From the IMG/VR virus record IMGVR_UViG_3300049426_000001, positions 1-28,749 of that record: 28,749 nucleotides of DNA. One strand, given 5' to 3'. Below the pieces are notes generated by a model. It searched no databases. It saw only the letters and a list, made by a program, of their open reading frames with translations, and was not told where the DNA came from. Shown one piece after another: positions 5,189 to 27,315 of the stretch; positions within the stretch are counted from its first letter, which is position 1; each line of letters opens with the position of its first letter. The stretch comes from a virus. Both the position numbers and the translations under genes were made by a program.

Positions 5189-8100
5189 GCTGCCGCCCTA
5201 GCAGGCATCGCCTTCGCAGACATCGCCTTGCCCAAGTACTGGCGCGTCCGGCGCAGTCCTTCGTCGGTTGCGCCATTTTCACTAATCGATTTGAGCAGCT
5301 CGTTCTGTTTCTCGATGAGAGCATTCTGGCTCTCAATTGCGGCTGTCTGTTTTTTCATCTCAAGCACAGCCGCAACGCTGGCGGCATCCCCCTGCCGTAC
5401 CGCCGAGGCGGTCTGCACACGCTCATCCTTGTGCAACACAGCGCGGTAATTATCGAACGGCACGCGATCAAGCCCGTTGGCGTGCGAACCATGCATACCC
5501 AAATATTCAGGCGACTGTTTGAAAGCTGCTGCTATCTGCTCGAGCGTGACGCCGGACATGGCTTTGTTCTGCCAGAACGCCAACCCGGCAGAATCTGGCG
5601 CGCGACCGAGCAGCGACTGGTAGAGTGAGCCAATCACGCCCGCCTGAGCGCCGGCCGCGTCCGACGTTTTCCCACCCGCCTGCAGCGATTGAGCAAGAGC
5701 GAAAATCGCCTCCTGCACGCCAAGGACGCGCTTGTCGATTGAGATCAACCCCGACACCTGCTTGTCCAACGCGTCCAGCTGTTGCTGAGCTACCGTGGCG
5801 GCGGCCGAAGATGATGCGGCCGACAGCGCGAGCGCCGCCTGGACCTTAACGTAATCCTTGACGTAGGCGCCGGTGCTGCCGTTGTATGCGCGCGAGGCCT
5901 CCAGCAGCGCATTCGCGGCCGCACCCTTGTCGGCCAGGCTGGCCGTATCGAACTGGCGCTGTGCTTCGGCGTACTTCTGCTCCGGCGACAGGATCGAACT
6001 GGAGCTCAGTTTCAGGGCATCAATTTGTTTCTTGGTCGCTGCGGCCTCGGCAAGCTTCGCGGTGACCACCTGCTTCAGGGCCGCCGATTCCGTGGCATAC
6101 GCGTTCGACAAGGCGGCACGGTCATCCGCGATATCCTTGGCGGCGTTGATCGAATCGTACAGCGCCAGATTACTGGCAGCGATGGTGGCGCGCTCTTTCT
6201 CACGCAACTGGATCGACGTCAACGTCAATTGGTCGAGCTGGTCCTGAAGGCCCAGGCGCTCGCTGTTTACCTTATCCGCGACCTGGGCGGCGACGACCGA
6301 ATCGTACAGCGCCAGATTGCTGGCAGCGATGGCGTTACGTTCCTTCTCCCGCAACTGGGTCGATGTCATCGTCAATTCGTCGAGTTGGCTCTGCAGGTCG
6401 CGGCGCTCGTCCATGATGTCGGAGGCGGACCGGGCCTTGACGCCGGTGGTCGCCTCGGCCAGATCGGCGGCGTATTCGGCTGCGGCCTGGAACGCCGGAG
6501 CGATAGCGATCATCGATGCGTACAGCGCCTGGTTGGCGGCGGTGGACAAGTCAAGCCCTCCCACCAGCTGGCCAGTGGCGTCCGCCTGGCCAACGATCAC
6601 GGCGGCGAACTGGTCCATGGTCGTGATGCCGGACATCCCCAGACGCGCCATCTCGGTTTTGACCGATGCGGTGATCGGCGCCATCTTCTGCGCCTCGGTC
6701 AGAAAGTTGTCGACGAAGAAGGCTGTGCCGGAGGTCAGCGTTTCGAGGTCACCGGCGGCCGAGATCAGGCCTTGGCCAAGCGCGACGGCGTCCAGACCGG
6801 TGACTTTGAATTCCTTGCCCAGCACCGCCAGCACGTCGCTCACCTGGACATAGTCGTTGGCAACGCGCGCCAACGTCTCCAGGTAGCCTTCACCCACCTT
6901 CTGATAATTCTCCAGCCCGGCAACGCCGAAGCGCGCCATATCGTCGCCAACCTTGGAGAACGCCGTTTCCAGCGCGGCTTGCTGTTCTGCACCGGTGAGG
7001 TCCTTGAAGGAGATCTTACCCAGGTCAACGACGAACGAATTGAGTTTGTCGGTGAAGCCATCGCGCGCCAGGCCCAACAGGGTGGCCTGTTCAGTGATCG
7101 CGGTGGCCATGCCGGTGACGATCATGGAGAACTGGCTGTTGATCTCCGCGCTCAGATCCCGCTTATCGGTGTTATTTTTGCTGCTTGAGAACCAGCCGCC
7201 GCTCGTCTTGGTGTCGGTGTAGGCCTGCGCAGTGAGGCCGCTTTGGGCGATGGTACCGAGCGAGGACTTTCCGACGACGACGCCGGTGTCGAGCACCGAC
7301 GTCTTGCCGCCGAAAATGCTGCTGACCACGCTGCCGATGAAGCCGCCACCACCGCCGCTCGCAACAGCGGCACCGGCCTTGGCGATATCGTCGCTACGCA
7401 CCAACAAGCTGCCGAGCCCGCCAATTCCAGACACGATCTGTTTCAGCGAGACAACCATGGAAGCGGAATGCGCCAGACCAAGCCCGGAATCCTTGGCGAT
7501 GATGTCCAAGGCGTTGGCAATCGATTCGCTTTTTGCGGACGGGTCGCCGAGCACGGAGCCGGTGCCGTTGGCGGCCTGGCGCTGCTCGGCGACGCTTGGG
7601 GAGGCACCGCCACCGCCACCACTTGCCAAGCCGATGGCGGCGAGCATCGCGGCGACGATGCCGACGGCCACCAAGCTCCCCGGAAAAGGTACAGCGATGG
7701 CGCCAGCCATGGCGGTAGTCGCCAACGCCGCTTGCTTGACGCCCTCGGCGGCCACAGTCACCGGAACGGTGGCCACGGTAGCCGCCGTCTCTACGGTCTT
7801 GGACGTGACGAAAAGGCCGGTGAATGCAGCGAGCAGGCCGCTTTTTGTCAGCATGCTCTCGACCGCCATCGCCATCTCATAGGCACGATAGGCTTTCTCG
7901 GTGGCCTCCAGGACCTTATAGCCCTTGGAGTTCTCCTTGAAGAAGCCCTTTGCCGCGCTGGCCATGTCGGCGTACTGGCGCACTTGGGCCCGACCTGAAG
8001 CCTCCGCCGCTTTCCCCTGCGCGGCCGCCTGCTTGACCGGATCGGCGCCCGCGTCTTTCATCGACGCGGCCAGCTCGGCGGCCACAGCGGCCTGCGTGCG

Positions 8101-12879: not shown

Positions 12880-13181
12880 GGCTTTTCCAGAATGATCAAC
12901 GTCAGGCCGGCTTCAAGCTGGCCGTCCGGACGGCGCTCGGCTACCCGCCAAGGCTTGCCGTTTACCGTGATCTCCGTGCCAACGAAGTCGGGCGGAACGG
13001 CGGCGCTGCTGATCACCATCTGCGGGTCCGCCGCACCCATGCCGGCCGGGCCGACCATACCCTGCCTATACTCGGCGTCGAAAACTACCGGCACATCGCT
13101 GCCGCCGATGACGGCAGTCGCGTTGGCCAGGTGTTTCATCACGCTGACGTTGAGCCGGGCTTCGGAGGCGGCGAAGGACAT
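12876..13181 (-). CDS. Head-tail joining protein (gpFII / Gifsy-2 type)
   Basis: A 101-aa protein. The middle of the sequence (VPVVFDAEYRQG) and the end (TEITVNGKPWRVAERRPDGQLEAGLTLIILEKP) match the beta-barrel head-tail attachment proteins of lambdoid phages, where a conserved G-x-W-R-V precedes D-G. It lies directly after the decoration protein gene and is coupled to the tail terminator gene by ATGA. These proteins finish the neck before tail binding. Confidence 0.76.
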   Translation of the reverse strand: MSFAASEARLNVSVMKHLANATAVIGGSDVPVVFDAEYRQGMVGPAGMGAADPQMVISSAAVPPDFVGTEITVNGKPWRVAERRPDGQLEAGLTLIILEKP

Positions 13182-13195
13182 GGTCGCGGGGCCGC

Positions 13196-13528
13196 TTAGC
13201 GGACGGCGCCATCCAGCAGCACGCGAGCCGCGGCAACGCCGTTGGTCTTGGCGTCGGTCAGAGCGCCTACCAACGTGTTGCTGCCGGCGGTAACCGTGAT
13301 GCGGCGGTTGGTGTTGTCCCAGTAGACCTTGACGCCGATGGCGCCGGTGTCGGTGGACAGTGCGGCGACATCGAACACGCCTTGGCGCTTGATTTCGACG
13401 GCGGCACCGCTGGCGGCATCGCAGGTGGCGATGCCGAACAAGGCGCCCACCAGCACGCCCTGGCCGCTGGACACCGCGTAGGGCGCCGGGACGGTGATGA
13501 CATCACCGGTTTGGATAAAATTTCGCAT
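13196..13528 (-). CDS. Capsid decoration protein, DUF2190-like (copy 1)
   Basis: A 110-aa protein. It contains FIQTGDVITVPAPYAVSSGQ, then GVLVGALFGIATCDAASG, GVFDVAALSTDTGAIGVKVYWD and TNGVAAARVLLDG, the arrangement of DUF2190 proteins, which decorate or cement capsids at the position of lambda gpD. It directly follows the protease-capsid fusion. AGGAT lies 6 nt before the ATG. A longer relative is encoded at 19498-19914. Confidence 0.85.
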   Translation of the reverse strand: MRNFIQTGDVITVPAPYAVSSGQGVLVGALFGIATCDAASGAAVEIKRQGVFDVAALSTDTGAIGVKVYWDNTNRRITVTAGSNTLVGALTDAKTNGVAAARVLLDGAVR

Positions 13529-13579
13529 GGTCTGATCCTGATTGGTATTGGTGGAGTGGGCTCGCTTGCCGGGCGCGGG

Positions 13580-15631
13580 TTACGCTGCTGCCTGGCCTTT
13601 GTAGAGGCCACGGTAGTCGATCGCTTTGGTAGCGAAGTCCAAGCGGCACTTGTACGAAATGCCGTCGATCTCGAAGCCGACTTGGCTCTCGATCACAGGA
13701 CCCTCGGCGCCGTCCAGATAGCAGTACTCGACGGTGTCGATCTGGCCGTTGTTGCTGGCCATATACCAATCGGTCAGACTCACGCCATCCAGCACCGACT
13801 CCACAATCGGCTCGACCGCAGTGCGGCCGCCAGCCCGGAATTCGTTGATATCCGATTGCTTGGCCGGAACGTAGTTGGAACTGGTCAACTGGTAGGCGTC
13901 CTGCTCGAGCGCGGTCGGCACGATCAGGAACTGCGGCGCGATATTCAAATCCTCGCCTTGCAGGCCCTTCTGCTGGCGCATGGCAGCGCGGCCGGCTTTC
14001 AGGCCCGCCATGGCCAGCGGCGCACCGGTGCCCAGGTTTTTGTGGTCGGCGTGGAAAACCGCTTTACCATCGGCCATGACGCCGTTGGTCAGCTGGCTGT
14101 ACACCAAGCGGTTTTCGAGGCGCCGCGCGCTGGCGCCAAAGGCGCTGACCAGACGGTCGAAGCCGCGCAGGTCGTCGTTGACGATCGCTTGGCGCGTCAG
14201 GCCGACGATGCGGCCGTGGGTGAGGACAGCATAGGTTTCGCCACCGTCGCTCATGGTGCCGTATTTGAATTCGCCGTGTTCGTTCGTGCGAAGCAGTTCG
14301 GGCGCGCCGGACAGCTGCACCACGTTGATGCCCTTGAAGTCCGGGGCGTTGGGTGCCTTGCGTGCCCACAGGTCGTAGGTGCCGACCGCGCCGACGTAAC
14401 CATCACGCAGCCGCTTGTTGGCGACGTTCGAGAACAGCGCGGCGAAGTCGCTGGTGGTGTGCATGCCCGAGCGGAAGTGCAGCATTTCGGTGGCCAAGCG
14501 CATCTTGTCCATGCCACGTGTCTCAATACCGCGCGATGCCAGGAACTCACGGCCGATTTCGAGCACGCTCATGCCCCGGAACTGGCGGCCGTTGTCGGTC
14601 AGCGTGGTGCCGCTGTGCACGCGGTGCATGAAAGCTTCTTCCATGCCGGCCATGCGAGTCACATGCTCGTCGCTGACGGTCTGGATCCGCACATTGCGCT
14701 GGTTGCCGCCTGCGTTGTCCGCACGGGCCAGCTCTTCCAGCACCGCGCTGCGGGCCTGGTCGACGCTGTTGCCGCTGCGGATCAGGCCGGCTGCCAGCTG
14801 GCCAACGTTGTGCCGGGTACACAGTTCGGTGATGTCGGCGGCGCGTGCGGCTGCGGCGGTGCCGGCGGCATCGATGGCGGCCTGGTTGGCGGCGCCGGAT
14901 GGGTCGGCAGCGCGGGTAGCGTCGACGACTGCTGGTGCGGCTGCTGCTGGAACGACCGGTGCGGCGCCGCCCTGAGTATTTGGTGTAGGCATGGAATTTT
15001 CCTGAGTGGGTAAATGGGCGGGCGCCCGGGTGAACTCGCACGGCAAACCGTTCGAGGGCTGTTCGCGGGTGCTCGCATTGGCATCCGCTGGAACGGTGAC
15101 GAAACTGATTTCGTAGGGCTGCCAGGACACGGCGCGGTAGAGCGGCATATTGACGCCGTCGGTGCGGTCGATGGCACGGGTGATTTCGTATTTGGTAACG
15201 GCGTAACCGAAGCTGATCGAGCGAATGATGCCGGTGCGGATGTCGGCCACGATGCCGGCGATCTCGGGGCGGGTGGACAGGCGCAGCGTGGCGCGGCCCT
15301 CGCCGTTATCGATGCTGGCTCGGACGGCGACACCCAGGATGGACTCGACGCCGCCGTAGGTCTGATGGCCGTTCAGCACCTGCACCACGCCGGCGTCGAA
15401 GCGGGCCATATCCACCGCTTCCGAAGTGACGACCAGCTCTTCCTCGTAGGGCTGGTCGTTGTACCAGTCGTAGCGGCGCACGCGGCCGCCAACAGTCCAC
15501 ACGCACTCAATGGTGTTGTCGGCTTCGTTAAAGGTTGCCGGCACGAGCTCCGCCGCGCGCGCCATTTGCGGCATCGTACGGGGGGCGCAATCGTCTGCCG
15601 GCGCGGTTGGGGAGGTGTTTGGAGTAGGCAT
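13580..15631 (-). CDS. Prohead protease / major capsid protein fusion
   Basis: One frame of about 683 aa joins a protease (first 213 residues) to a HK97-fold capsid protein. In the protease part VLNGHQ carries the probable catalytic His (residue 89) and RSISFGY the Ser (residue 140), as in family S78 enzymes. In the capsid part, after a Pro/Ala-rich delta-like linker, DNGRQFRGMSVLEIGREFLAS and VFHADHKNLGTGAPLAMAGL are typical. The fusion must be cleaved, or the capsid part started separately: an ATG at 14992 (also MPTPNT) has AGGA 7 nt before it. The main start is uncertain, as MPTPNT at 15631 and MRQLNP at 15661 both lack a clear ribosome site; the second lies inside the 31-bp dyad. Confidence 0.92.
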   Translation of the reverse strand: MPTPNTSPTAPADDCAPRTMPQMARAAELVPATFNEADNTIECVWTVGGRVRRYDWYNDQPYEEELVVTSEAVDMARFDAGVVQVLNGHQTYGGVESILGVAVRASIDNGEGRATLRLSTRPEIAGIVADIRTGIIRSISFGYAVTKYEITRAIDRTDGVNMPLYRAVSWQPYEISFVTVPADANASTREQPSNGLPCEFTRAPAHLPTQENSMPTPNTQGGAAPVVPAAAAPAVVDATRAADPSGAANQAAIDAAGTAAAARAADITELCTRHNVGQLAAGLIRSGNSVDQARSAVLEELARADNAGGNQRNVRIQTVSDEHVTRMAGMEEAFMHRVHSGTTLTDNGRQFRGMSVLEIGREFLASRGIETRGMDKMRLATEMLHFRSGMHTTSDFAALFSNVANKRLRDGYVGAVGTYDLWARKAPNAPDFKGINVVQLSGAPELLRTNEHGEFKYGTMSDGGETYAVLTHGRIVGLTRQAIVNDDLRGFDRLVSAFGASARRLENRLVYSQLTNGVMADGKAVFHADHKNLGTGAPLAMAGLKAGRAAMRQQKGLQGEDLNIAPQFLIVPTALEQDAYQLTSSNYVPAKQSDINEFRAGGRTAVEPIVESVLDGVSLTDWYMASNNGQIDTVEYCYLDGAEGPVIESQVGFEIDGISYKCRLDFATKAIDYRGLYKGQAAA
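14990..15005 (-). promoter_or_regulatory. Internal start of the capsid domain, with ribosome binding site
   Basis: On the minus strand AGGA, then seven bases, then ATG begins MPTPNTQGG inside the fusion, at the junction of protease and capsid parts. The strength of this site compared with the weak upstream starts suggests free capsid protein could be made here. Confidence 0.5.
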
Positions 15632-15644
15632 GCAGACAGTCTGC
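15632..15644. repeat. Perfect inverted repeat GCAGAC-1-GTCTGC at the protease-capsid start
   Basis: Six-base arms around one central base, ending 1 nt before the ATG at 15631. It may fold in the mRNA and block or replace a ribosome site, or bind a regulator. The half-site is the same as in the 16-bp palindrome at 25603-25618. Confidence 0.6.
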
Positions 15645-15654
15645 GGATTTAACT

Positions 15655-15685
15655 GTCTCATTTCCCGGAAAGCTGAGACGATTTT
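15655..15685. repeat. 31-bp dyad, copy 1 (before protease-capsid gene)
   Basis: GTCTCA and TGAGAC form the outer arms and TTTCC and GGAAA inner arms, with a two-base bulge. A 30/31 identical copy is at 21679-21709. This copy lies between a terminator (15706-15729) and the start of the protease-capsid gene, where a promoter would be needed. Confidence 0.75.
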
Positions 15686-15705
15686 CTATTTCGGTGTTTC
15701 GGACG

Positions 15706-15729
15706 AAAAAAAACCCGCCGAAGCGGGGT
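15706..15729 (-). terminator. Intrinsic terminator with a UUCG loop before the protease-capsid gene
   Basis: On the minus strand CCCGC, the stable tetraloop TTCG, then GCGGG is followed by eight T residues. It lies 25 nt after the stop at 15754, and 2 nt after the alternative-frame stop at 15731. Transcription of the capsid and tail genes must then read through or restart at 15.7 kb. Confidence 0.88.
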
Positions 15730-15753
15730 ATCAGATCATGCGCCTCAGATAGA

Positions 15754-15918
15754 TCAGCCCATCCCACGGTGCGCTGCTGATACCGGCGCCCTTGGTGTTC
15801 GCTGCACGCTGTGTAGGCAGGCAGTCGCCTGACCGATCTCGGATGGCGAGAACAGGACGGTGAAGGGTCGGCGCGCGTAGTTCTCGGCATCCGGCAGGCC
15901 GGTTTCGATGATGAGCAT
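15754..15918 (-). CDS. Tiny ORF at the end of the esterase cassette, possibly frameshifted
   Basis: A 54-aa ORF beginning MLIIETGLPDAENYARRPFT, with AAAGG 7 nt upstream and its ATG 3 nt after the 461-aa gene's stop. The start resembles the N-terminus of DnaT-like or gp6-like head-completion proteins, which are far longer. In the -1 frame the second half reads QRAANTKGAGISSAPWDG and LIYLRRMI, ending at a TGA (15731) directly before the terminator, and looks more protein-like than the zero frame. The gene may therefore be frameshifted, or end at 15731. Function unknown. Confidence 0.5.
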   Translation of the reverse strand: MLIIETGLPDAENYARRPFTVLFSPSEIGQATACLHSVQRTPRAPVSAAHRGMG

Positions 15919-15920
15919 GG

Positions 15921-17306
15921 CTAGCCTTTCGGTGCGGCCAAGTACTCGGCCTCGGTGATCTTGCTCAGCGTCGCTTGCAGCACGCCGGCCGGGCCGGGGA
16001 ACTTCCACGCCACCAGGGCGCACCAGCCGCCAAGCGGCCACTTTACGTACGCAGGCGCGCCGTCGGTCGGCACCAGCACGATGTTCGCTGCAGCGCCGCC
16101 CTCGGGCTTCTGGCCGTAGACGATCATCTTCAGCCGTGCGCCGCAATCGGAGTTGGTCGAGAGCTTGAAGTACTCACCGGCCTTAGGCTTGAGATTCTGG
16201 ACGCGGAACCCGGTGCCGTTGGTGTTGGCCACGCTGACCAGCTCGGTGTTGGCCGCGAATCTCAGGCCTTGGGCGAGCGTGTCGTAGAGGCCGGGTGCCA
16301 GCGCGCTGGTCTTCTCATGTAGCCAGGGACCGCGCAGCGACATGATGCCCGGCTCCGAGATGGTTTCCTCACCGGCGATCCAGCCGTCTTGCGATACCAC
16401 CTGGCGCAATTGCGTGCGGATGTACTCCAGCTCGGCGGCCATGCCGTTGTCCCAGCCCACCACACTTGGCGACATGTCCCAGGGTGCGCCGTTCTCGACG
16501 TAGATCGAGTACGGGGTGTATTCGTTGCGGTCGACCACGCGCGCGCCGTAGACCTTGAGCGTTTCGGCTACCTTCTTCAGCAGCGGCCAGCGGGTCAGCC
16601 GTGCCGTGTCGTAGCCGGGCGGCAGCATCATCAGGGCGCCCTGCGGAATCTTGCCGGTGTTGGTGCTGGCTGCATTCCAGTCGGAGATCGTGGCCGGCGG
16701 GATAAACGCGGGCGATGCGGCAAGGCCGGACTGATCAAGCGACATGGCCAGCGCGTGCTCGAACAGCGGCTTGCCGTCGGCGACCTCGTGCTTGCGGATC
16801 ATGCCGGCGCAGGTTGCTACGCCGGTGGCGCGCGCCCCTTGATAGTAGTGGGCGGCGTCGCCCCAACCGCTACCCTTCAGCGGACTCCAGCCGTACTGGC
16901 GCGCGGTGAAGCGCCCGGCCGCGTCCCGCTTCAAGATCCAGAACGAATGAATCACGCCGGCCGCCTCGTCGATGATGTCGCAGTGACCATCCGATCCCGA
17001 AGCGCCGACAGCGTCAGCCGGCCAGTGCGGGATCGTGATTGATGGCTTCCACTCATCGGCGTCCGAGTCGAAGATGCCCTTCGACCCTGCCACTGCGTAG
17101 ATCGTGCGCGGCAGCTCGCTCGGCAAGGCGCGGTAAATACCCGTCGAGAATGCGCCGCCCTCAATCGACGGGTAGCACTTGTACGCGGTCCCACGCGGCT
17201 TGAAGCACGCCGGGATCACCCAGGCGCCGAGAACCGGATTCACCGGGCGACTGTTCCACGGCGAGTTGGCCGCGAACGGCCGCAGGAAGGTGCTGAATTT
17301 GGTCAT
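15921..17306 (-). CDS. Unknown protein of the portal-capsid cassette (461 aa)
   Basis: Opens MTKFSTFLRPFAANSPWNSR and has about 4% Trp and many aromatic residues. The middle part, GARATGVATCAGMIRKHEV, GKPLFEHALAMSLDQSGL, IPQGALMMLPPGYD and LKVYGARVVDRNEY, resembles from memory a motif set in secreted bacterial proteins whose role is not established but which often accompany carbohydrate-active domains. The C-terminal part (about 330-461) looks like a beta-sandwich. There is no signal peptide. It lies between the SGNH esterase and the tiny ORF and is probably co-transcribed with them. A link to polysaccharide binding or cleavage is inference. Confidence 0.6.
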   Translation of the reverse strand: MTKFSTFLRPFAANSPWNSRPVNPVLGAWVIPACFKPRGTAYKCYPSIEGGAFSTGIYRALPSELPRTIYAVAGSKGIFDSDADEWKPSITIPHWPADAVGASGSDGHCDIIDEAAGVIHSFWILKRDAAGRFTARQYGWSPLKGSGWGDAAHYYQGARATGVATCAGMIRKHEVADGKPLFEHALAMSLDQSGLAASPAFIPPATISDWNAASTNTGKIPQGALMMLPPGYDTARLTRWPLLKKVAETLKVYGARVVDRNEYTPYSIYVENGAPWDMSPSVVGWDNGMAAELEYIRTQLRQVVSQDGWIAGEETISEPGIMSLRGPWLHEKTSALAPGLYDTLAQGLRFAANTELVSVANTNGTGFRVQNLKPKAGEYFKLSTNSDCGARLKMIVYGQKPEGGAAANIVLVPTDGAPAYVKWPLGGWCALVAWKFPGPAGVLQATLSKITEAEYLAAPKG

Positions 17307-17318
17307 ATTGGCTTTCTT

Positions 17319-19484
17319 TTAGGACAACGTTACGACGCCACGGAACGCTTTCGAGCCGTCCGCGTTCGTCAGCACCAGATAACCCTGCTGGCCGGCGGTC
17401 TTGGTCGAGAACACCGACAGACTCAACGCTCCGCCGCTGATCGCAGCAGTCGTGCCGCTGTCCGCCGCGACCGTCAGGCCATCGGCTGACGTTTGATCGA
17501 AGAAGGACCAGACCAAGCCCGTTGCGTCGGCCGCCGGCACCGTGCCCGCCAAGTCCTGGAACAGCGGCAGGCTGATGGTGCGAGCGGTGCGGGCGCCACG
17601 AATCGGCGCAACAAAGGCCTGGATCGCGTTGACGACCGCCGGCGCGATATCACCGATATTGGCATTGCCGAACGGATGCAGGCTGTCCGAAGACTTCGAC
17701 GTGACGAAGAAGCCGTTGGTGTCGACGAACAGGCAGCGAGTCGGCGCGGTGCAGGCCGCAATCGCCGCCTGCAGTTGTGCACTGCGGGCCGTGCCGTTGA
17801 ACGGGCGCAGCACCACGATGCGGGTGGTTTTTGGCGTCGCCGCAAGCAAGCCGTTCAACACCGTAGTCATCGCCGACGTAATGTCTGCCGAATCATTCGT
17901 GCCGATGTTGATGACGATCACGTCCGGCGCAACGGCGAACGAGCGGGCGACACCGGAATACAGGAAGTTGTAGGTGCCAGTCAGCGCGGGAACGCCACCC
18001 ACGCCGGTCTGCACCGCGCCTTGCGCGGAGAATCCGACAACGCCGAATTCAAAGCCCATCAGCCGAGCAACTTCCGGCGCCCATCCAAGGAACGCGTCGT
18101 GGCTGTTCAAGTCCGGCGTGCCGGCGATCTTCACCGTACGGTCGCCCTCGGTGATGCTGTCACCCAGGAACAACATCGAGCGCGGCAGCTTGGTCGGCAG
18201 CGTCAGCGTCTTGGTGGCGTCCAGTACGATGCCAACCAAAACGACCGCCGTTGCCTGCGTCGCCCAGCGCAATTGCGTTTCGGTCATCGACTTGAAGCGA
18301 ACTTCCAGGAGGCGCCCGCCGGCGTTCGCCCAGCCAGCAGTGTCGGACGGGATCGCCAACGCCACGCTGGCGGCGATATCGACGGTGGTCCAGGCGCCGT
18401 AGCCGTCGACGCGGTAGCTTATCTGAGGCAGCGGCGTCAGGATGCCGGTCATGTCGAATTGCAACGTGCACGAGGTGCCGCCGAAGATCGTGCGGAAGTA
18501 AGCGCCCGGGTTGATTGTTTTTGCGTTACCCGCGCTGACATTCCAATTCAACGGCGAAAACACCACCTTGGTCTGGTCGAAACCCGCCCCCGAAGCCGAT
18601 GCCGTGTAGGTGATGTTCGATGGATTCGCCAGGCTGCCGTCGTTATTTACTGCTATCGTTTTTGCGCCGGCGGTGCTCGCCGTGGCGGTGAAGGTCGCGG
18701 TAGGCGAAGCGCTGCTGATCGAGACGCTGGTAGGGGTGAATGTTACGCCGGCTACCGGGGTCGGCGTAACTACCACAGTTCCGGTTATAACGCCGTTGGC
18801 GCCCACCGAGAAGGCCGAAGAGGCCGCACCCACGGCGCCAGTGGTTGGGCCGGACAGGGTGACAGCGGTCGCCGCGACAGCACCGGAACTGTCCGTGCCG
18901 TTACCGTCGAGATGCCAAAGACCGATCAGATTGTTCTCGGTGCCAATATATGCGCTTGTTTGCGGCGTGAAGTCGGCCGTGTGCAACACGGCGCCCCACA
19001 GGGAAACTTCATCAACCTCGCCGCCCCAGGCATTCGCGCCGCCGCCGAAGATGTTGATGCCGATGACGCTTGCGCGGGATGGGGTGGCGGCCGCCATGGT
19101 GGTTGCGCTGGAACCCGCGAGGACGCCGTCGATATAGAACGTAGCCCCGGTGGTCGGGTCCATATTCAGTTCCAGATGGTGCCATGCGTTGTCGCAGACG
19201 TTGACGGTGGTGGCGACCGTTACCTCGTTGCCGCCAGTGCCATAGCGAACCTGCGCAAGACCGCCGGTGGCCTGCACGCCCATCCAGAACGTACCCACCG
19301 AACCGAGCGCGACGACGACCGCGCTTGGCGCAGTTGCTCGCTTCACCAAAAGGCTGGCGGTCCACGGTGCATTGTTAGCTGGCAGTAGCGCGATTGGGAC
19401 GGTACCGGAGCCAGCGTTCAGGCTCTGGCCGAATTTACCGGTGGCGTTGTAGCCTGCGCCCGTCATTGTTGCGTTAGTTGGCAT
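17319..19484 (-). CDS. LamG-like plus SGNH/GDSL hydrolase (esterase) of the portal-capsid cassette
   Basis: A 721-aa protein. Residues about 30-175 match a LamG/concanavalin-like fold (WHHLELNMDPTTGATFYIDG, then GGEVDEVSLW). Residues 230-300 look like a bacterial Ig-like repeat (TFTATASTAGAKTIAVNNDG). Residues 435-625 are an SGNH hydrolase: FLGDSIT with Ser443 (block I), NIGTND with Asn530 (block III), and DSLH with Asp600 and His603 (block V). These enzymes remove acetyl groups from sugars or lipids. Residues 636-721 are an unassigned beta-rich end. No signal peptide. AGGG lies 10 nt upstream of the ATG. Deacetylation of host surface polysaccharide by a virion-bound enzyme is a reasonable inference. 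Confidence 0.83.
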   Translation of the reverse strand: MPTNATMTGAGYNATGKFGQSLNAGSGTVPIALLPANNAPWTASLLVKRATAPSAVVVALGSVGTFWMGVQATGGLAQVRYGTGGNEVTVATTVNVCDNAWHHLELNMDPTTGATFYIDGVLAGSSATTMAAATPSRASVIGINIFGGGANAWGGEVDEVSLWGAVLHTADFTPQTSAYIGTENNLIGLWHLDGNGTDSSGAVAATAVTLSGPTTGAVGAASSAFSVGANGVITGTVVVTPTPVAGVTFTPTSVSISSASPTATFTATASTAGAKTIAVNNDGSLANPSNITYTASASGAGFDQTKVVFSPLNWNVSAGNAKTINPGAYFRTIFGGTSCTLQFDMTGILTPLPQISYRVDGYGAWTTVDIAASVALAIPSDTAGWANAGGRLLEVRFKSMTETQLRWATQATAVVLVGIVLDATKTLTLPTKLPRSMLFLGDSITEGDRTVKIAGTPDLNSHDAFLGWAPEVARLMGFEFGVVGFSAQGAVQTGVGGVPALTGTYNFLYSGVARSFAVAPDVIVINIGTNDSADITSAMTTVLNGLLAATPKTTRIVVLRPFNGTARSAQLQAAIAACTAPTRCLFVDTNGFFVTSKSSDSLHPFGNANIGDIAPAVVNAIQAFVAPIRGARTARTISLPLFQDLAGTVPAADATGLVWSFFDQTSADGLTVAADSGTTAAISGGALSLSVFSTKTAGQQGYLVLTNADGSKAFRGVVTLS

Positions 19485-19497
19485 CTGGTATCCCTAT

Positions 19498-19914
19498 TTA
19501 TGCGAAGATTGCGTTGCCATTGGCGGCACGTTGAGTGGAGAAGTTGCCGCCGAGGACGCCCTCGGCTGGCGGCGAAGTGGATACGAGACAGACGCCACTC
19601 AAACAGGCGCCTCCCTGAGCGACGCCAGCCGCGACATCGGCCAGGGCAGCCCCGATCAATGGCCCCGACGCGCTCGCGGTATCGCAACGATTATTTGCAT
19701 CGTCCCAATAAATCCTCTGGCCTGACACCCAAGCTTGCCCGACAGTTTTAGGCAGCGAGAACACGCCGTGGATTTTGCTCTCGACAAGCGAGCCGCTAGC
19801 GGCCGACGTTGTCGCGATGGCGAAAATTGTGCCTACCACAAACGGATCGCCCGCCAGTAGATTGCGCGGGGCTTCCAGCGGCAGCACACCGCCCTTGTGA
19901 TTAAAATTCTTCAT
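19498..19914 (-). CDS. DUF2190-like capsid decoration protein (copy 2), with C-terminal extension
   Basis: A 138-aa protein. FVVGTIFAIATTSAASGSLVE and GVFSLPKTVGQAWVSGQRIYWDDANNR align by eye with copy 1 at 13196-13528 (GVLVGALFGIATCDAASG, GVFDVAAL, KVYWDNTNRR). It carries about 30 extra C-terminal residues, ending FSTQRAANGNAIFA. It comes first in the cassette between portal and protease, where a second decoration protein is unexpected. AGGAAAAACGA precedes the ATG. It may be the capsid anchor for the esterase proteins that follow. Confidence 0.72.
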   Translation of the reverse strand: MKNFNHKGGVLPLEAPRNLLAGDPFVVGTIFAIATTSAASGSLVESKIHGVFSLPKTVGQAWVSGQRIYWDDANNRCDTASASGPLIGAALADVAAGVAQGGACLSGVCLVSTSPPAEGVLGGNFSTQRAANGNAIFA

Positions 19915-19957
19915 TCGTTTTTCCTAAATCACGGCTGTTTGGTCGAGCGCGCCACAA

Positions 19958-21442
19958 TTATTTCGATGGCTTCAGTTCTGCCGCCGTTCCGGTTTCAGTT
20001 GGGAGGTTGCCTTTTTGCAGGAAGAGCAGGATGTCCAGAATCCCCATCTCGGACAGCTTGTCGAAGTCGCTCTTGATCTCGGCGAACACGTCGTCAGGGT
20101 TGTCGCCGCGCTGACGAATTTTTTCGCTCAGGCTGCACAGGCCACCGCCGATCTCGGCCAGGTCTGACTTAACATCATCTACAGGGTTGACGTAATCCCA
20201 TTTCGGCGGGCTGTAACGCACCGCGTAGTCGGGCCGGCGGATGCTGCCGTTGAGGTAGGCGGCATCGACGACGGCACGGTGGATGGGATCCAGCAGCTTG
20301 GGGATGATCACCAGCCACTGCATGCGGCCGACAGAGCGCCGGAAGTCGAGCAGCCGCACGCGCGCGCTGCTGAAATTCACCTCGTTCATGTCGCCGGTCA
20401 TCATTTCGTAGGGCACGCCGAAACCGGCCGAGATGATGTGCATGTTGTATCTCACGTATTCGACGTAACCGGGCGCCGCTTTCGGCTCGACGACAGTGAC
20501 ATTGGTCCCTGCTGGCATCTGGAAAACGCTGCCGCTCGGCAGTTCACCCAGGTCGCCAGTCTGATTAGCGTGCCGCGCTGGATCCGCGCTATCACCGAAC
20601 ACAGGTGCATTGCCCATCTGCGACACATCACCGCTGCCAATAACGCTCAGCCGGGTTTCTAGGTTTTTGCGCGCGAGCTCGGCGTCTTCGTACAGTTGCA
20701 GGTCGCGCACGCGGCCGATGATCGGCGCCATGCGGGGGAAGCCCCGGCCCTGCCCTGGCCGCTTGGGGCTATACAAGTGGATGATGAACTGAGCCGGAAC
20801 GCGCTGGCTCTGGTTTTTCTTATTGCGCAGCCGGGTGGCGTCGCCGGGATGCTGGGGCCACAGGTAGTAGGCCGTCACGGCGCCCAGGCCGTTGTATTCG
20901 ATGCCGTTAATAACGTCCTGTCCATCGACCACGCCGGTACGAGTGCTGTCGAGCCAGTCGATTTCCAGCAACTGCAGCTGCAAGGGAATCGGAAGGCCGT
21001 CGCTGGGCCGGCGCGGCCGCAACCGTATCATGAGTTCGCCGTCCGCTTCCATCGTCTCGTAGGCGGCCGCTTGCATGCCGTAGTAGTCGAGGCGGCCGTC
21101 GGCGTCGCAGACCTTGGTCCACTGCTCGAACAGCGCATTGAACTTGTCGGCGTCTACGCCGATCGAACGCGGCATGATGCCGACGCCGATGGTGGCCGAG
21201 ACCAAACCCTCGAATCCGGCCTGAATGTAGGGTACGTTCTGAATCAGCGAGCGGGACTTGGCGCGCAGCGCGGGCGCGTCGGCCAGGTGATCGGCGTTCG
21301 CGCTGGCGCCAGCGCGGCGCGGGCGCCAGGTGTCGCGCGGGCTGGCGGCCTCGTAGGCGCGCTCCAGCTGTTTGCGGGCGAAGTGGCGCTGGATTCCCGC
21401 GTTCGGGCTGACCCAGCCGACAACCCAGTCGATGATGTTCAT
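19958..21442 (-). CDS. Portal protein (lambda GpB type)
   Basis: A 494-aa protein. NIIDWVVGWVSPNAGIQRH, then ALRAKSRSLIQNVPYIQAGFE, GELMIRLRP, LQLLEIDWLD, IIHLYSPKRPGQGRGFPRMAP and IISAGFGVPYEMMTGDMNEVNFSSAR are the successive signature blocks of the lambda-type portal, which forms the twelve-fold entry vertex of the head and binds terminase. The ATG overlaps the gpW stop (ATGA at 21442). The last 30 or so residues are a flexible tail. Confidence 0.92.
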   Translation of the reverse strand: MNIIDWVVGWVSPNAGIQRHFARKQLERAYEAASPRDTWRPRRAGASANADHLADAPALRAKSRSLIQNVPYIQAGFEGLVSATIGVGIMPRSIGVDADKFNALFEQWTKVCDADGRLDYYGMQAAAYETMEADGELMIRLRPRRPSDGLPIPLQLQLLEIDWLDSTRTGVVDGQDVINGIEYNGLGAVTAYYLWPQHPGDATRLRNKKNQSQRVPAQFIIHLYSPKRPGQGRGFPRMAPIIGRVRDLQLYEDAELARKNLETRLSVIGSGDVSQMGNAPVFGDSADPARHANQTGDLGELPSGSVFQMPAGTNVTVVEPKAAPGYVEYVRYNMHIISAGFGVPYEMMTGDMNEVNFSSARVRLLDFRRSVGRMQWLVIIPKLLDPIHRAVVDAAYLNGSIRRPDYAVRYSPPKWDYVNPVDDVKSDLAEIGGGLCSLSEKIRQRGDNPDDVFAEIKSDFDKLSEMGILDILLFLQKGNLPTETGTAAELKPSK

Positions 21443-21654
21443 CAGTCGCCTCGGAAAGTGGTGAAGCGAAATTGGAAGCTGCTGCGCCGCGCCACAGGAG
21501 CTGCGGCGCGCAGGATGCCGGCAACGTGCTCCCGCGCCTGGATCAGCTCGGCGGTGGAGCGGTATTTGACGCGGCGGCCGTCCATCTGAACTTCCAGTTC
21601 GCTGGTGGCGATTGCGCTATCGAGGGCGTCGAGGTCTGTTTGTGTGAGGGCCAT
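21442..21654 (-). CDS. gpW-like head-tail joining protein
   Basis: A 70-aa protein. MALTQTDLDALDSAIATSELEV followed by DGRRVKYRSTAELIQAREHVAGILR is the two-helix and hairpin pattern of gpW, which stabilises the packaged DNA and binds the neck. It is coupled to the portal gene by ATGA. No ribosome site precedes the ATG: the preceding bases are a small hairpin, which itself follows a 31-bp dyad (21679-21709). Confidence 0.85.
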   Translation of the reverse strand: MALTQTDLDALDSAIATSELEVQMDGRRVKYRSTAELIQAREHVAGILRAAAPVARRSSFQFRFTTFRGD

Positions 21655-21678
21655 GCCGCCGACTGTATCGGCGCGGCC

Positions 21679-21709
21679 GTCTCATTTCCCGGAAAACTGA
21701 GACGATTTT
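21679..21709. repeat. 31-bp dyad, copy 2 (before gpW)
   Basis: Identical to 15655-15685 except for one base in the bulge. It starts at the stop codon of the Mor-like gene and ends 24 nt before the gpW ATG. Outer arms GTCTCA and TGAGAC, inner arms TTTCC and GGAAA. Confidence 0.75.
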
Positions 21710-22068
21710 TAGCGCCCCGACGTTTTGATGATGCGGTACACCGTTGCGCGGCTCACGCCCAAGCGGCGCGCCACCTCGGTTGGGTTGCGGCCGTTGAACA
21801 ACCGCATCACGTCTTCCACCAGCAGCTGGCGTTGGGTCTTTGACCGGCGGGGGATGTAGGTTTCGATGCCCGAGAATTCCTTGCGTGCTGCCTCCTTCAG
21901 TTCTGCCGCGCGCGCGGAGATCTCGGGGAACTCGGCCAGGATGTATGCAAAGATCGCTTCGACCAGGTCGGCCTCGATGATGGCGGCCGAGCTCACCAGT
22001 CCCGCGCCGTGGTTTTCTTGGGTGCCGGAGGCCGTGATGCTGCTGATGTTGTCGATTGCTTCGGCCAT
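21709..22068 (-). CDS. Mor-family transcription activator
   Basis: A 119-aa protein. Residues 70-115 read TYIPRRSKTQRQLLVEDVMR, LFNGRNPTEVARRLGVSRAT, VYRIIK. The YIPR motif followed by a helix-turn-helix with the A-R-x-L-G-V-S-x-x-T-V-Y-R-I-I pattern is typical of the Mu Mor/C family, which binds dyads upstream of -35-less promoters and recruits RNA polymerase. The first 60 residues are helical, for dimerisation. AGAGGCG lies 6-7 nt before the ATG. It overlaps the end of the terminase gene by 76 nt in another frame, and its stop touches a 31-bp dyad. The regulated promoters are not proven. Confidence 0.75.
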   Translation of the reverse strand: MAEAIDNISSITASGTQENHGAGLVSSAAIIEADLVEAIFAYILAEFPEISARAAELKEAARKEFSGIETYIPRRSKTQRQLLVEDVMRLFNGRNPTEVARRLGVSRATVYRIIKTSGR

Positions 22069-24023
22069 TGGGCGCCTCTTTCAGTGGTTGCTGCGTTGTT
22101 TTCTTGTGGTGCTGCTGGTGCTTCTGGCGGCGCTGGCGCTTCGGCTTTTGGTGCGGCTGGCGTGTCCGCTTCCGGTACGGGCGCCGGCGCCGATTCATCG
22201 AACAGGTCGCCGGTCGGCGGGTCGACCTTATCGCGCACGCCTTGCCACTGGCTCTCGTTCAGCTTGTGCAGGCCCAGGTAGTAGGCGGCGGCAAGGTTGT
22301 AGACCATCAAGTCGCCGGCCTCGTTGCGGGCACCATTCGGTTTCTGCCATACGCTGATCTTTTTGCCGCGTTTATAGGTAGCCACGCGGAACTCGACCGT
22401 CAGCTGCTCGTAGTATTCGTCCGGCAGGTCCGTGGAGAAGTGGACTGCACCCGGCCCCTTGGCGAACTTGTAGCGCGCAGCCAGCCAGTCCTTGGCTGTG
22501 TCGGTACCAATGAACCACAGCTTTGCGCCCTGAGGTACCTTACGGCCCATCCAGTCGATGTCCATCAAGCTCGGCTTGGCGCTCAGCACCGGCTTATTCG
22601 GCTGTGACGCCCCCTTGATGGCGAAGACATGGCGCCACTGACGGTCGGCCGTGAAGTTGTACACGTCCTGCGTATTGTGCCCGCCAGAGTCGACAAAGGC
22701 AGCGCTGATCGGCAGCATCTTGCCGCTGGCGTGCCGGTACCGGCCGATCAGAATGGCATCGAGCTTTTCCCACACAGCAGTTTCCGCTGGCGCGCCCTGC
22801 AGGACCTGGTAGTCGACGATCCAGCTTTCCATACCTACGCCCCAGGCCACCACCTTCACCTCCAGCCGGTCCGGTTGCGTGTCGACGGTGGCGGTCAGGA
22901 TCAGGCCGCCTTTCGGCACGGTGCCCAGACGGTAATCCTCGGCGCGCGCCTTCAGCTCCGTCGCCTTGGTCTGCTCCTTCTGCCGCGCCCAGCAGCGCGC
23001 CAGGCGGGTGTTGTAGAAGGTGATCATCAGCTCTTCGCTACCAGCGGCCAGCTTCTCTTTGGCGGCCCGATATTCCTTGAGCATGCCCAACCAAGAGAAC
23101 CAACCATAGGGGAGAAACATGCCGGAGATCGTAAGGCTGACCGTTTCACCGTCGCCCGGAACGCCCTCGGACCAAGCACCGCGCGCGAACATGCGGCTTT
23201 TGTCGCTCTCCACCATGCATTCCCCGCACTCGATACAAGGGTACAGCGCGGTCTGACCATCCTCGGACAGCTGCAGGCGCTCGAACACCAAGGTTTGCTC
23301 CTGCCCGCAATGCACGCAATCGGCTAGCGCCTCCTCTTGCGTTCCCATCTGGAACAACTCATCGATGATCGACTCGCCTTCGATCGTCGGCGAGCTGGGA
23401 TAGTACGATTTCTTGTTTTTCTCGAAGGTTGTCTGGCGCGCCTCGGCCAGCTTCCAAGAAGCGCCCTCGCCGTTCACGTTGACCTCGGACCGATCGATCT
23501 CGTCGTACAGCACGTAGCGCGCCGGCAGCTCCGATAAGTTCGCTGCCGCGCCGGACGTGACAATGGTCAGAGCCCCGCCGATGTATTCTTTCGTGTCGAG
23601 CGTGTTGACGGAGTCGCGCGAGCGCGGCGAGGCGACGCGTTCGGCCAATTCCGGCACGGCCGCAATGGTCTTCGAGATGCGCGAACTGGTGCGTTTCTGG
23701 AGCTTGCCCGTCGGCAGAATCCACAGAAAATTTGCCGGGCTTTGGTGCACAGTGGCGCCGAACCAGTTCAGACCCACCTGCGTTTTAAGCATCTGGCTAG
23801 CCCCCTTCAGCGCCACCCGCTTGCACGGGTTGTTTGCAGATAGCGCCTGCATGACGCGACGCGCATGCGGCGTACGCGAACTGCGGTATTTGCCGTGCTC
23901 GTTGGCGCCGGAATCGGCAGGGATGATCATGTATCGATCCGCCCATTCGTCGACCGGCATATCGGGATCGGGCTCGAATCCGCGCGCGACTGCATCAGCG
24001 ATGACGAAAGAGGCAGCGTTCAT
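21993..24023 (-). CDS. Terminase large subunit (GpA family)
   Basis: A 676-aa packaging ATPase and nuclease. GASQMLKT at 74-81 is the divergent Walker A of this family, and LYDEID (Asp174/Glu175) the Walker B. Two CxxC pairs (Cys236/239 and Cys263/266) make a zinc site. ATVDTQPD (Asp381), FVDSGG (Asp445) and GDL (Asp571) are the likely nuclease acidic residues. A Pro/Ala-rich linker at about 605-650 leads to a basic tail. Its ATG overlaps the stop of the small subunit. GpA-type enzymes cut at cos, so the phage probably has cohesive ends. Confidence 0.93.
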   Translation of the reverse strand: MNAASFVIADAVARGFEPDPDMPVDEWADRYMIIPADSGANEHGKYRSSRTPHARRVMQALSANNPCKRVALKGASQMLKTQVGLNWFGATVHQSPANFLWILPTGKLQKRTSSRISKTIAAVPELAERVASPRSRDSVNTLDTKEYIGGALTIVTSGAAANLSELPARYVLYDEIDRSEVNVNGEGASWKLAEARQTTFEKNKKSYYPSSPTIEGESIIDELFQMGTQEEALADCVHCGQEQTLVFERLQLSEDGQTALYPCIECGECMVESDKSRMFARGAWSEGVPGDGETVSLTISGMFLPYGWFSWLGMLKEYRAAKEKLAAGSEELMITFYNTRLARCWARQKEQTKATELKARAEDYRLGTVPKGGLILTATVDTQPDRLEVKVVAWGVGMESWIVDYQVLQGAPAETAVWEKLDAILIGRYRHASGKMLPISAAFVDSGGHNTQDVYNFTADRQWRHVFAIKGASQPNKPVLSAKPSLMDIDWMGRKVPQGAKLWFIGTDTAKDWLAARYKFAKGPGAVHFSTDLPDEYYEQLTVEFRVATYKRGKKISVWQKPNGARNEAGDLMVYNLAAAYYLGLHKLNESQWQGVRDKVDPPTGDLFDESAPAPVPEADTPAAPKAEAPAPPEAPAAPQENNAATTERGAQWPKQSTTSAASRPPAPKKTTARDW

Positions 24024-27009: not shown

Positions 27010-27315
27010 CCTTCACTCCTCGGTCAAGTTTCAATGGTTTTAGATGCTATTTATGACCAACCCGTCATACCCATCACATACCCATCACATCGCCAGCCCG
27101 CATAGACACTCACTTGTTATGGGTGTTATGGGTGTTATTACTACTTTCTACTTTCTGACAAAAAAAATATGCAAGCCGAAGCACAAACCCGGACGAACTT
27201 TGCAGCCTCACGCGCATGTATACGTGCGCGAGGAACCCGTAACACCCATCACACCCATAACAAGTGAGCATCCATGCGGGCCGGCGGTGTGATGGGTTGC
27301 TCCCGATGTTATGGG
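27010..27315. repeat. Non-coding block with eight ATGGGT repeats in nested inverted repeats (candidate origin)
   Basis: Two arms, 27069-27141 and 27239-27316, are inverted copies of each other with a few mismatches. Each arm holds two ACCCAT and two ATGGGT elements (starting at 27069, 27080, 27119, 27128; and 27244, 27253, 27292, 27311), usually 9-11 bp apart, within TGT(T/G)ATGGGTGT. The 97-bp centre has an AT-rich tract (ACTTTCTACTTTCTGACA then eight A) and a 20-bp near-palindrome. No gene is supported; the 69-aa ORF on the minus strand uses TTG and is made of repeats. It directly follows the helicase gene. Confidence 0.8.
27211..27230. repeat. 20-bp near-palindrome in the repeat block
   Basis: CGCGCATGTATACGTGCGCG is palindromic except for one mismatched pair (positions 7 and 14). 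It lies at the centre of the nested inverted repeat. Confidence 0.65.

Follow-up and report, generated by a model that had tools for sequence, protein, structure and literature searches.

We find that a phage with a lambda-type head gene cluster very probably (about 0.88) places its head genes under the control of a Mor-family protein, with two near-identical dyads serving as the operators of activator-dependent promoters. The window, that is the whole stretch of DNA analysed, is a 28,749-base IMG/VR fragment without an attached host genome, and the putative activator is encoded at 21709-22068. This reading agrees with the earlier note, which had proposed that a Mor-like activator switches on two head-gene promoters; it is supported by matching switches of recognition helix and half-site and by co-occurrence, in the absence of any binding or transcription data. 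On the same basis, a Mor/C-type activator with two or three operators appears to control the head promoters, and sometimes the lysis promoters, of a lambda-type phage family. This little-known family infects beta-proteobacteria; its activator would read the same 25-letter mirror-image signal upstream of each target gene, and helix and signals have changed together several times in evolution.

All genes concerned, from the terminases to the head decoration, lie on the minus strand of the window. They run from small terminase, large terminase, Mor-family gene, dyad 1, gpW and portal through a cargo region to a terminator, dyad 2, the protease-capsid fusion and head decoration; the cargo between portal and dyad 2 consists of a head decoration protein, a GDSL/lectin protein and another large ORF. 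The main features are:

21709-22068, minus strand: Mor-family activator gene, 119 amino acids, recognition helix SRATVYRIIK, with Pfam, PHROG and PDB profile matches
21679-21703, minus strand: dyad 1 (gpW site), GTCTCAGTTTTCCGGGAAATGAGAC, kept before gpW in relatives
21442-21654, minus strand: gpW-type head-tail adaptor, first gene of head unit 1 (PHROG Ad1, E 2e-18)
19958-21442, minus strand: lambda-family portal gene (Pfam Phage_portal_2, E 2e-85)
15714-15727, minus strand: intrinsic-terminator-like hairpin upstream of dyad 2, with a run of eight T at 15706-15713
15655-15679, minus strand: dyad 2 (capsid site), GTCTCAGCTTTCCGGGAAATGAGAC, kept before the capsid gene in relatives
13580-15631, minus strand: protease-capsid fusion, first gene of head unit 2 (Pfam Peptidase_S78 and Phage_capsid_4)

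By its sequence, the product of 21709-22068 is a member of the Mor/C transcription activator family. It matches Pfam PF08765 (Mor) with an E value of 2.2e-8 (34.5 bits, curated cut-off 24.9) and the PHROG late transcriptional activator with 3e-10, and a profile search of the PDB returned Mu Mor (1rr7/9l0y) and Mu C (9l0x). The same Mu Mor and C structures (1rr7, 9l0x, 9l0y) were the best hits of a fold search against 350,542 chains, with weak E values of 0.04-0.2, and the AlphaFold model predicts helices with a confident helix-turn-helix (mean pLDDT >90, residues 81-110). The likeness to Mu Mor 1rr7, which joins an N-terminal dimerisation domain to a C-terminal helix-turn-helix, is only suggestive at the level of the fold. 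The gpW-type product also matches the PHROG connector category, and PHROG assigns the product of 13580-15631 to major head and protease. Two head-decoration (Phage_cement_2) genes are present, at 13196-13528 and 19498-19914, the latter directly downstream of the portal gene and beside that of the GDSL/lectin protein (17319-19484). Elsewhere in the window, a 58-nt inverted repeat (27080-27137 and 27240-27297, 90% complementary, 102 nt apart) sits between a primase-type gene and a small ORF.

The two 31-bp dyads described in the earlier note are indeed present, GTCTCATTTCCCGGAAAGCTGAGACGATTTT at 15655-15685 and GTCTCATTTCCCGGAAAACTGAGACGATTTT at 21679-21709, with 30 of 31 bases identical. Their placement just before gpW and just before the protease-capsid gene is confirmed by the Pfam and PHROG matches of these genes, and the contact of the first dyad with the stop codon of the Mor-like ORF (21709-22068, minus strand) holds as a one-base overlap at 21709. 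The relaxed palindrome GTCTCA-N5..30-TGAGAC occurs twice in the window with 0.04 expected per shuffled window, and for a stricter form the expectation in shuffled copies drops to 0.00. A terminator before the second dyad, which had also been claimed, exists here as a hairpin with eight T, but is rejected as a general feature, since among non-redundant relatives it precedes only 5 of 55 capsid sites and 0 of 80 gpW sites. We likewise rejected the dyad as a terminator of the Mor transcript: it lacks a T-run downstream on the gene strand, and in several phages inserted genes part it from Mor. The capsid gene likely starts at the ATG at 15631 rather than at 15661, because the latter falls within dyad 2 and because the dyad-to-ATG distance is conserved.

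The comparison with relatives refined the element to a dyad of 23-25 bp, TCTCA-N13-TGAGA with nested TTTCC..GGAAA, which has an A-tract upstream and a -10-like hexamer at a fixed 12 nt downstream. In the window these parts are:

21706-21708, minus strand: A-tract (UP-element-like) directly upstream of dyad 1, conserved A positions
21662-21667, minus strand: -10-like hexamer TACAGT, separated by 12 nt from TGAGA and by 7 nt from the gpW ATG
15682-15684, minus strand: A-tract directly upstream of dyad 2, conserved A positions
15638-15643, minus strand: -10-like hexamer CAGACT, separated by 12 nt from TGAGA and by 6 nt from ATG 15631

Positions 13-18 past TGAGA read xAxxxT in 79/80 gpW and 52/55 capsid sites (non-redundant), whereas base composition predicts about 3% (3.3% for gpW sites). 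Three of the four exceptions have the hexamer shifted by one, and the fourth (L293) seems to be a chance match. The share of A at -4 to -6 before TCTCA amounts to 66-90% in the 80 gpW sites and 74-96% in the 55 capsid sites, and this conservation occurs in GC-rich phages. The first base of the hexamer is mostly T at gpW (TACCCT, TACCGT, TAGCGT) and mostly C at the capsid gene (CACAGT, CAGAAT, CACCAT), a conserved difference that might set the relative strength of the two promoters. A further inverted repeat, weak and of changing sequence, recurs around the -10 in relatives (z 3.0 at gpW sites and 4.2 at capsid sites); in the window it lies at 21656-21673 and 15632-15644.

This anatomy can be compared with the Mu promoter Pm, which has a -10 but no -35 hexamer, an activator dyad, and upstream of it an A/T region bound by the alpha-CTD; the Pm site itself spans 16 bp, has its centre at -43.5 and consists of two 5-bp repeats 6 bp apart (PMC4390567, PMC4287176). 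Scanning the window from 13000 to 22200, we found no sigma-70 -35/-10 hexamer pair, and a -10 hexamer without a -35 hexamer is what both sites have. The conserved A positions also fit the partial A/T-rich UP element upstream of the activator site, as far as this can be judged without alpha-CTD binding data. The site design of Pm is not met, as the 5-bp repeats are mostly 13 bp apart and the dyad is centred near -36. Therefore, the promoters described here are a variant and not Pm itself, and since centre and arm spacing differ, the protein-DNA contacts may differ as well. An objection that Mor-type binding at -43.5 would put the start past the ATG was dropped, because the hexamer at its fixed 12 nt gives a start at the ATG.

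The start codon follows the hexamer after 6-8 nt in 48/77 gpW and 48/55 capsid sites, and few sites show a Shine-Dalgarno core (7/77 and 2/55, respectively). If the hexamer is taken as a -10, transcription would consequently start at the ATG or at most about 1-2 nt away from it, and the gpW and capsid mRNAs are probably leaderless or nearly so; both the start and leaderless translation are inferred. Leaderlessness is not universal, as about a quarter of the gpW sites have their ATG 20-50 nt downstream of the hexamer. In these cases the distance between hexamer and dyad is unchanged, from which we conclude that the two form one unit.

A scan of viral contigs for the dyad alone yielded 56 stretches, and a second pattern variant yielded 102. 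Searches starting from the Mor protein, from portals or from divergent Mor proteins converged on the same loci. Throughout these relatives, viral contigs as well as prophages of Burkholderiales (Massilia, Undibacterium, Caldimonas, Delftia, Comamonas and Rhodoferax), gpW and the capsid gene are each preceded by one dyad. Genes inserted between Mor and gpW (e.g. L053, L070, L073, L083) leave the first dyad next to gpW, and cargo between portal and capsid leaves the second next to the capsid gene; with cargo of varied length the distance between the dyads ranges from about 1.8 to 7.9 kb. Nearly all of 36 long records contain two or three TCTCA-N-TGAGA dyads, the outliers being two short or partial records with one and a single record with four matches, and a reversed control pattern gave no match in the same 36 records. 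A search without any consensus, for the best repeated palindrome pair in 161 distinct Mor-carrying loci, recovered both sites in most of them.

The earlier note had suggested checking related prophages for co-occurrence of dyad and Mor, and this is near-complete in the phages. A Mor match is found in 42 of 47 dyad-bearing records; of the remaining five, L007, L035 and L054 end before the Mor region, the others being L004 and L028. Among 393 whole genomes of the host family, Mor is present in eight (E < 1e-39), and precisely these eight carry 2-3 composite motifs of dyad and -10; the other 385 have no composite motif beyond two single unrelated chance matches, so that at least two sites occur in 8/8 genomes with Mor vs 0/385 without. 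In one genome Mor survives only as a decayed remnant, and there is no site. Relatives that carry dyads but no Mor, which would have refuted the proposal, are limited to fragments and three satellite-like elements. The named Mor-less relatives RcOceanus, RcKemmy, Psul1, LPPA33, Haddon and PBb001, which share the head cluster, have no dyad, and in all of them except PBb001 little or no gap separates gpW from the terminase gene ahead of it, or the portal from the head gene that comes next. Neither blastn of the dyad region nor tblastn of the window Mor protein matched any named phage; only a distant Mor variant did so, in Mu-like Pseudomonas phages and one coliphage.

A tie between protein and dyad comes from the recognition helix. 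In 139 distinct phages, [S/G]RA helices go with TCTCA, GRT with T[T/C]CCA and HR. with TCGCA, without exception: all nine GRTT helices accompany TTCCA or TCCCA, all six H helices TCGCA, and the other 124 TCTCA. This association covers only the three half-site classes that our search patterns can reach. On a tree built without the helix, and from 96 columns only, eight independent switches fall on supported branches and all are concordant (sign test p 0.008); six of the independent helix/site pairs concern GRTT. The gpW and capsid sites share the switching half-site base in 72/73 phages. A GRST helix (L252) comes with a hybrid site whose left half is TCCCA and whose right half is TGAGA; STAS/STQT helices accompany another altered dyad. 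The two sites of one phage also resemble each other more than sites of different phages, with 0.20 vs 1.90 mismatches in the inner 9 nt and 0.39 vs 1.12 in the dyad arms, a similarity reached in 0/20,000 permutations. For the flanks the effect is only small (downstream 12.76 vs 13.30 mismatches, 118/20,000 permutations; upstream 16.24 vs 16.83, 534/20,000). Measured in this way, the two sites of one phage co-evolve. Since helix and half-sites change together, the Mor-like protein is tied to the dyads, and this covariation is strong, albeit indirect, support for dyad binding, which itself is unmeasured.

Other explanations for the dyads have to account for the same data. As hairpins in the leader RNA of gpW and capsid they could steer translation or stability, for example when bound by a head protein; they can indeed fold as stem-loops (z -1.4 and -2.5), and most lie near an ATG without a Shine-Dalgarno core. 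However, their arms are near-invariant across diverse phages instead of covarying freely, the changes that do occur track the Mor recognition helix, the distance to the hexamer stays fixed even with the ATG 20-50 nt away, and the same dyad is found before lysis genes and before the alpA genes of satellites. Moreover, the start predicted from the hexamer lies downstream of the dyad, which would therefore not be transcribed from that promoter, and we regard a role in RNA as very unlikely.

Slightly less probable still is that the dyads serve a different regulator as operators, be it a phage repressor or a host factor, with the Mor-like gene merely adjacent. Repressors commonly use dyad operators and three elements carry the dyad without Mor, but these elements resemble satellites, whole host genomes show dyads only alongside Mor, and mere adjacency explains neither that the dyad stays with gpW despite genes inserted between it and Mor nor that all eight independent helix switches match half-site switches. 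The variable length of the cargo, with dyads about 1.8 to 7.9 kb apart, and the two head-decoration genes at 13196-13528 and 19498-19914 would suit boundary or recombination sequences for swapping the portal-capsid cargo, without any regulatory role. Recombination, however, needs neither hexamer nor A-tract nor ATG spacing, all of which are conserved; besides, cargo-free phages retain both dyads in the same places and the first dyad is retained where genes separate Mor from gpW, which leaves this the least credible of the explanations.

Under activation by the Mor-like protein, the favoured reading, the activator would be expressed from the final gene of the terminase operon and would bind the dyad, centred near -36 if the hexamer is placed at -12 to -7. 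There it would take the place of the -35 contact, act with the alpha-CTD on the A-tract and recruit the host RNA polymerase. Promoter 1 would start transcription of gpW and portal, and promoter 2 would restart it at the protease-capsid gene past the cargo and, in the window phage, past the terminator. Starts no more than about 1-2 nt from the ATG would yield leaderless or nearly leaderless mRNAs, and in a subgroup the holin/lysis cassette would come under the same activator as well. What the genomes themselves show is conservation, fixed spacing, co-variation and co-occurrence, while binding, activation, the start at the ATG and leaderless translation are inferred.

The subgroup in question has a third dyad with the same hexamer spacing before holin/lysis genes. 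It was noted in Massilia-type loci (L119:3457, L120:2501, L121:3253, L122:2203, L124:2802, L126:3443); no third dyad was seen in the window. In Mu, C activates Plys, which is comparable to this third site.

With the Mu system, in which Mor (middle) and C (late) serve the promoters Pm, Plys, PI, PP and Pmom, the phages described here have the PF08765 family in common, together with a dyad upstream of a -10-only promoter, an A/T-rich region directly upstream of the site, and several late promoters, lysis promoter included, under one activator. In contrast to Mu, the activator gene lies between large terminase and gpW in a lambda-type head cluster with a protease-capsid fusion, there is a single activator instead of two, TCTCA-N13-TGAGA with its nested inner repeats is about 7 bp nearer to the start than the 16-bp Mu element, and start codons are at the predicted +1. 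The order TerS-TerL-gpW-portal-protease/capsid is the same in Stenotrophomonas phage S1 and in Rc-type phages of Rhodobacter, whose portals are 53% and 36% identical, respectively, and whose head clusters are homologous. However, the Rc phages lack both a Mor gene and the dyad, their genes abutting, and S1 offers no more than a weakly Mor-like ORF, its inverted repeat being a different one. In the open-access literature (subscription journals were not covered), we found no description of Mor-like control of lambda-type head genes.

Three elements have a dyad but no Mor gene:

L004 (IMGVR 3300032607_002001), 142-518: dyad before AlpA; integrase, AlpA, primase domains and capsid; no Mor
L116 (JAFEER010000171.1, a MAG), 6346-6663: dyad before AlpA; integrase and Toprim primase; no Mor
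L028, 7640-8253: dyad before a primase operon; DUF927/Toprim primase, capsid without the protease part; no Mor

The xAxxxT hexamer is kept in all three, which are probable phage satellites and may borrow the activator of a helper, an inference in both respects. The L116 element adjoins chromosomal genes and has the order integrase, dyad, AlpA, Toprim primase. In L004 and L116, for which only one contig and an 8-kb stretch were available, we detected neither TerL nor portal nor Mor. Like P4-like/PICI satellites with AlpA, these two carry integrase, AlpA and primase genes; unlike them, they have the dyad promoter of the phages immediately upstream of alpA, a placement suggestive of induction by the activator of the helper. 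That everything holds together, a Mor-type activator, leaderless head (and lysis) promoters, a helix code, and satellites whose AlpA-primase genes are under the helper activator and which start only once the helper enters late expression, is tentative and falls somewhat short of even odds.

If our reading is true, Mor/C-type control would reach beyond transposing Mu-like phages to lambda-type head clusters, and a testable regulon of one activator with two or three promoters would be at hand. The natural swaps A108T with T[T/C]CCA and S106H with TCGCA represent a small recognition code, which could provide orthogonal activator-promoter pairs. Besides, head mRNAs without leaders, as predicted here, are relevant to the translation of structural genes that lack a Shine-Dalgarno core, and the dyad copies in satellites suggest a route by which a parasite may sense the late phase of its helper.
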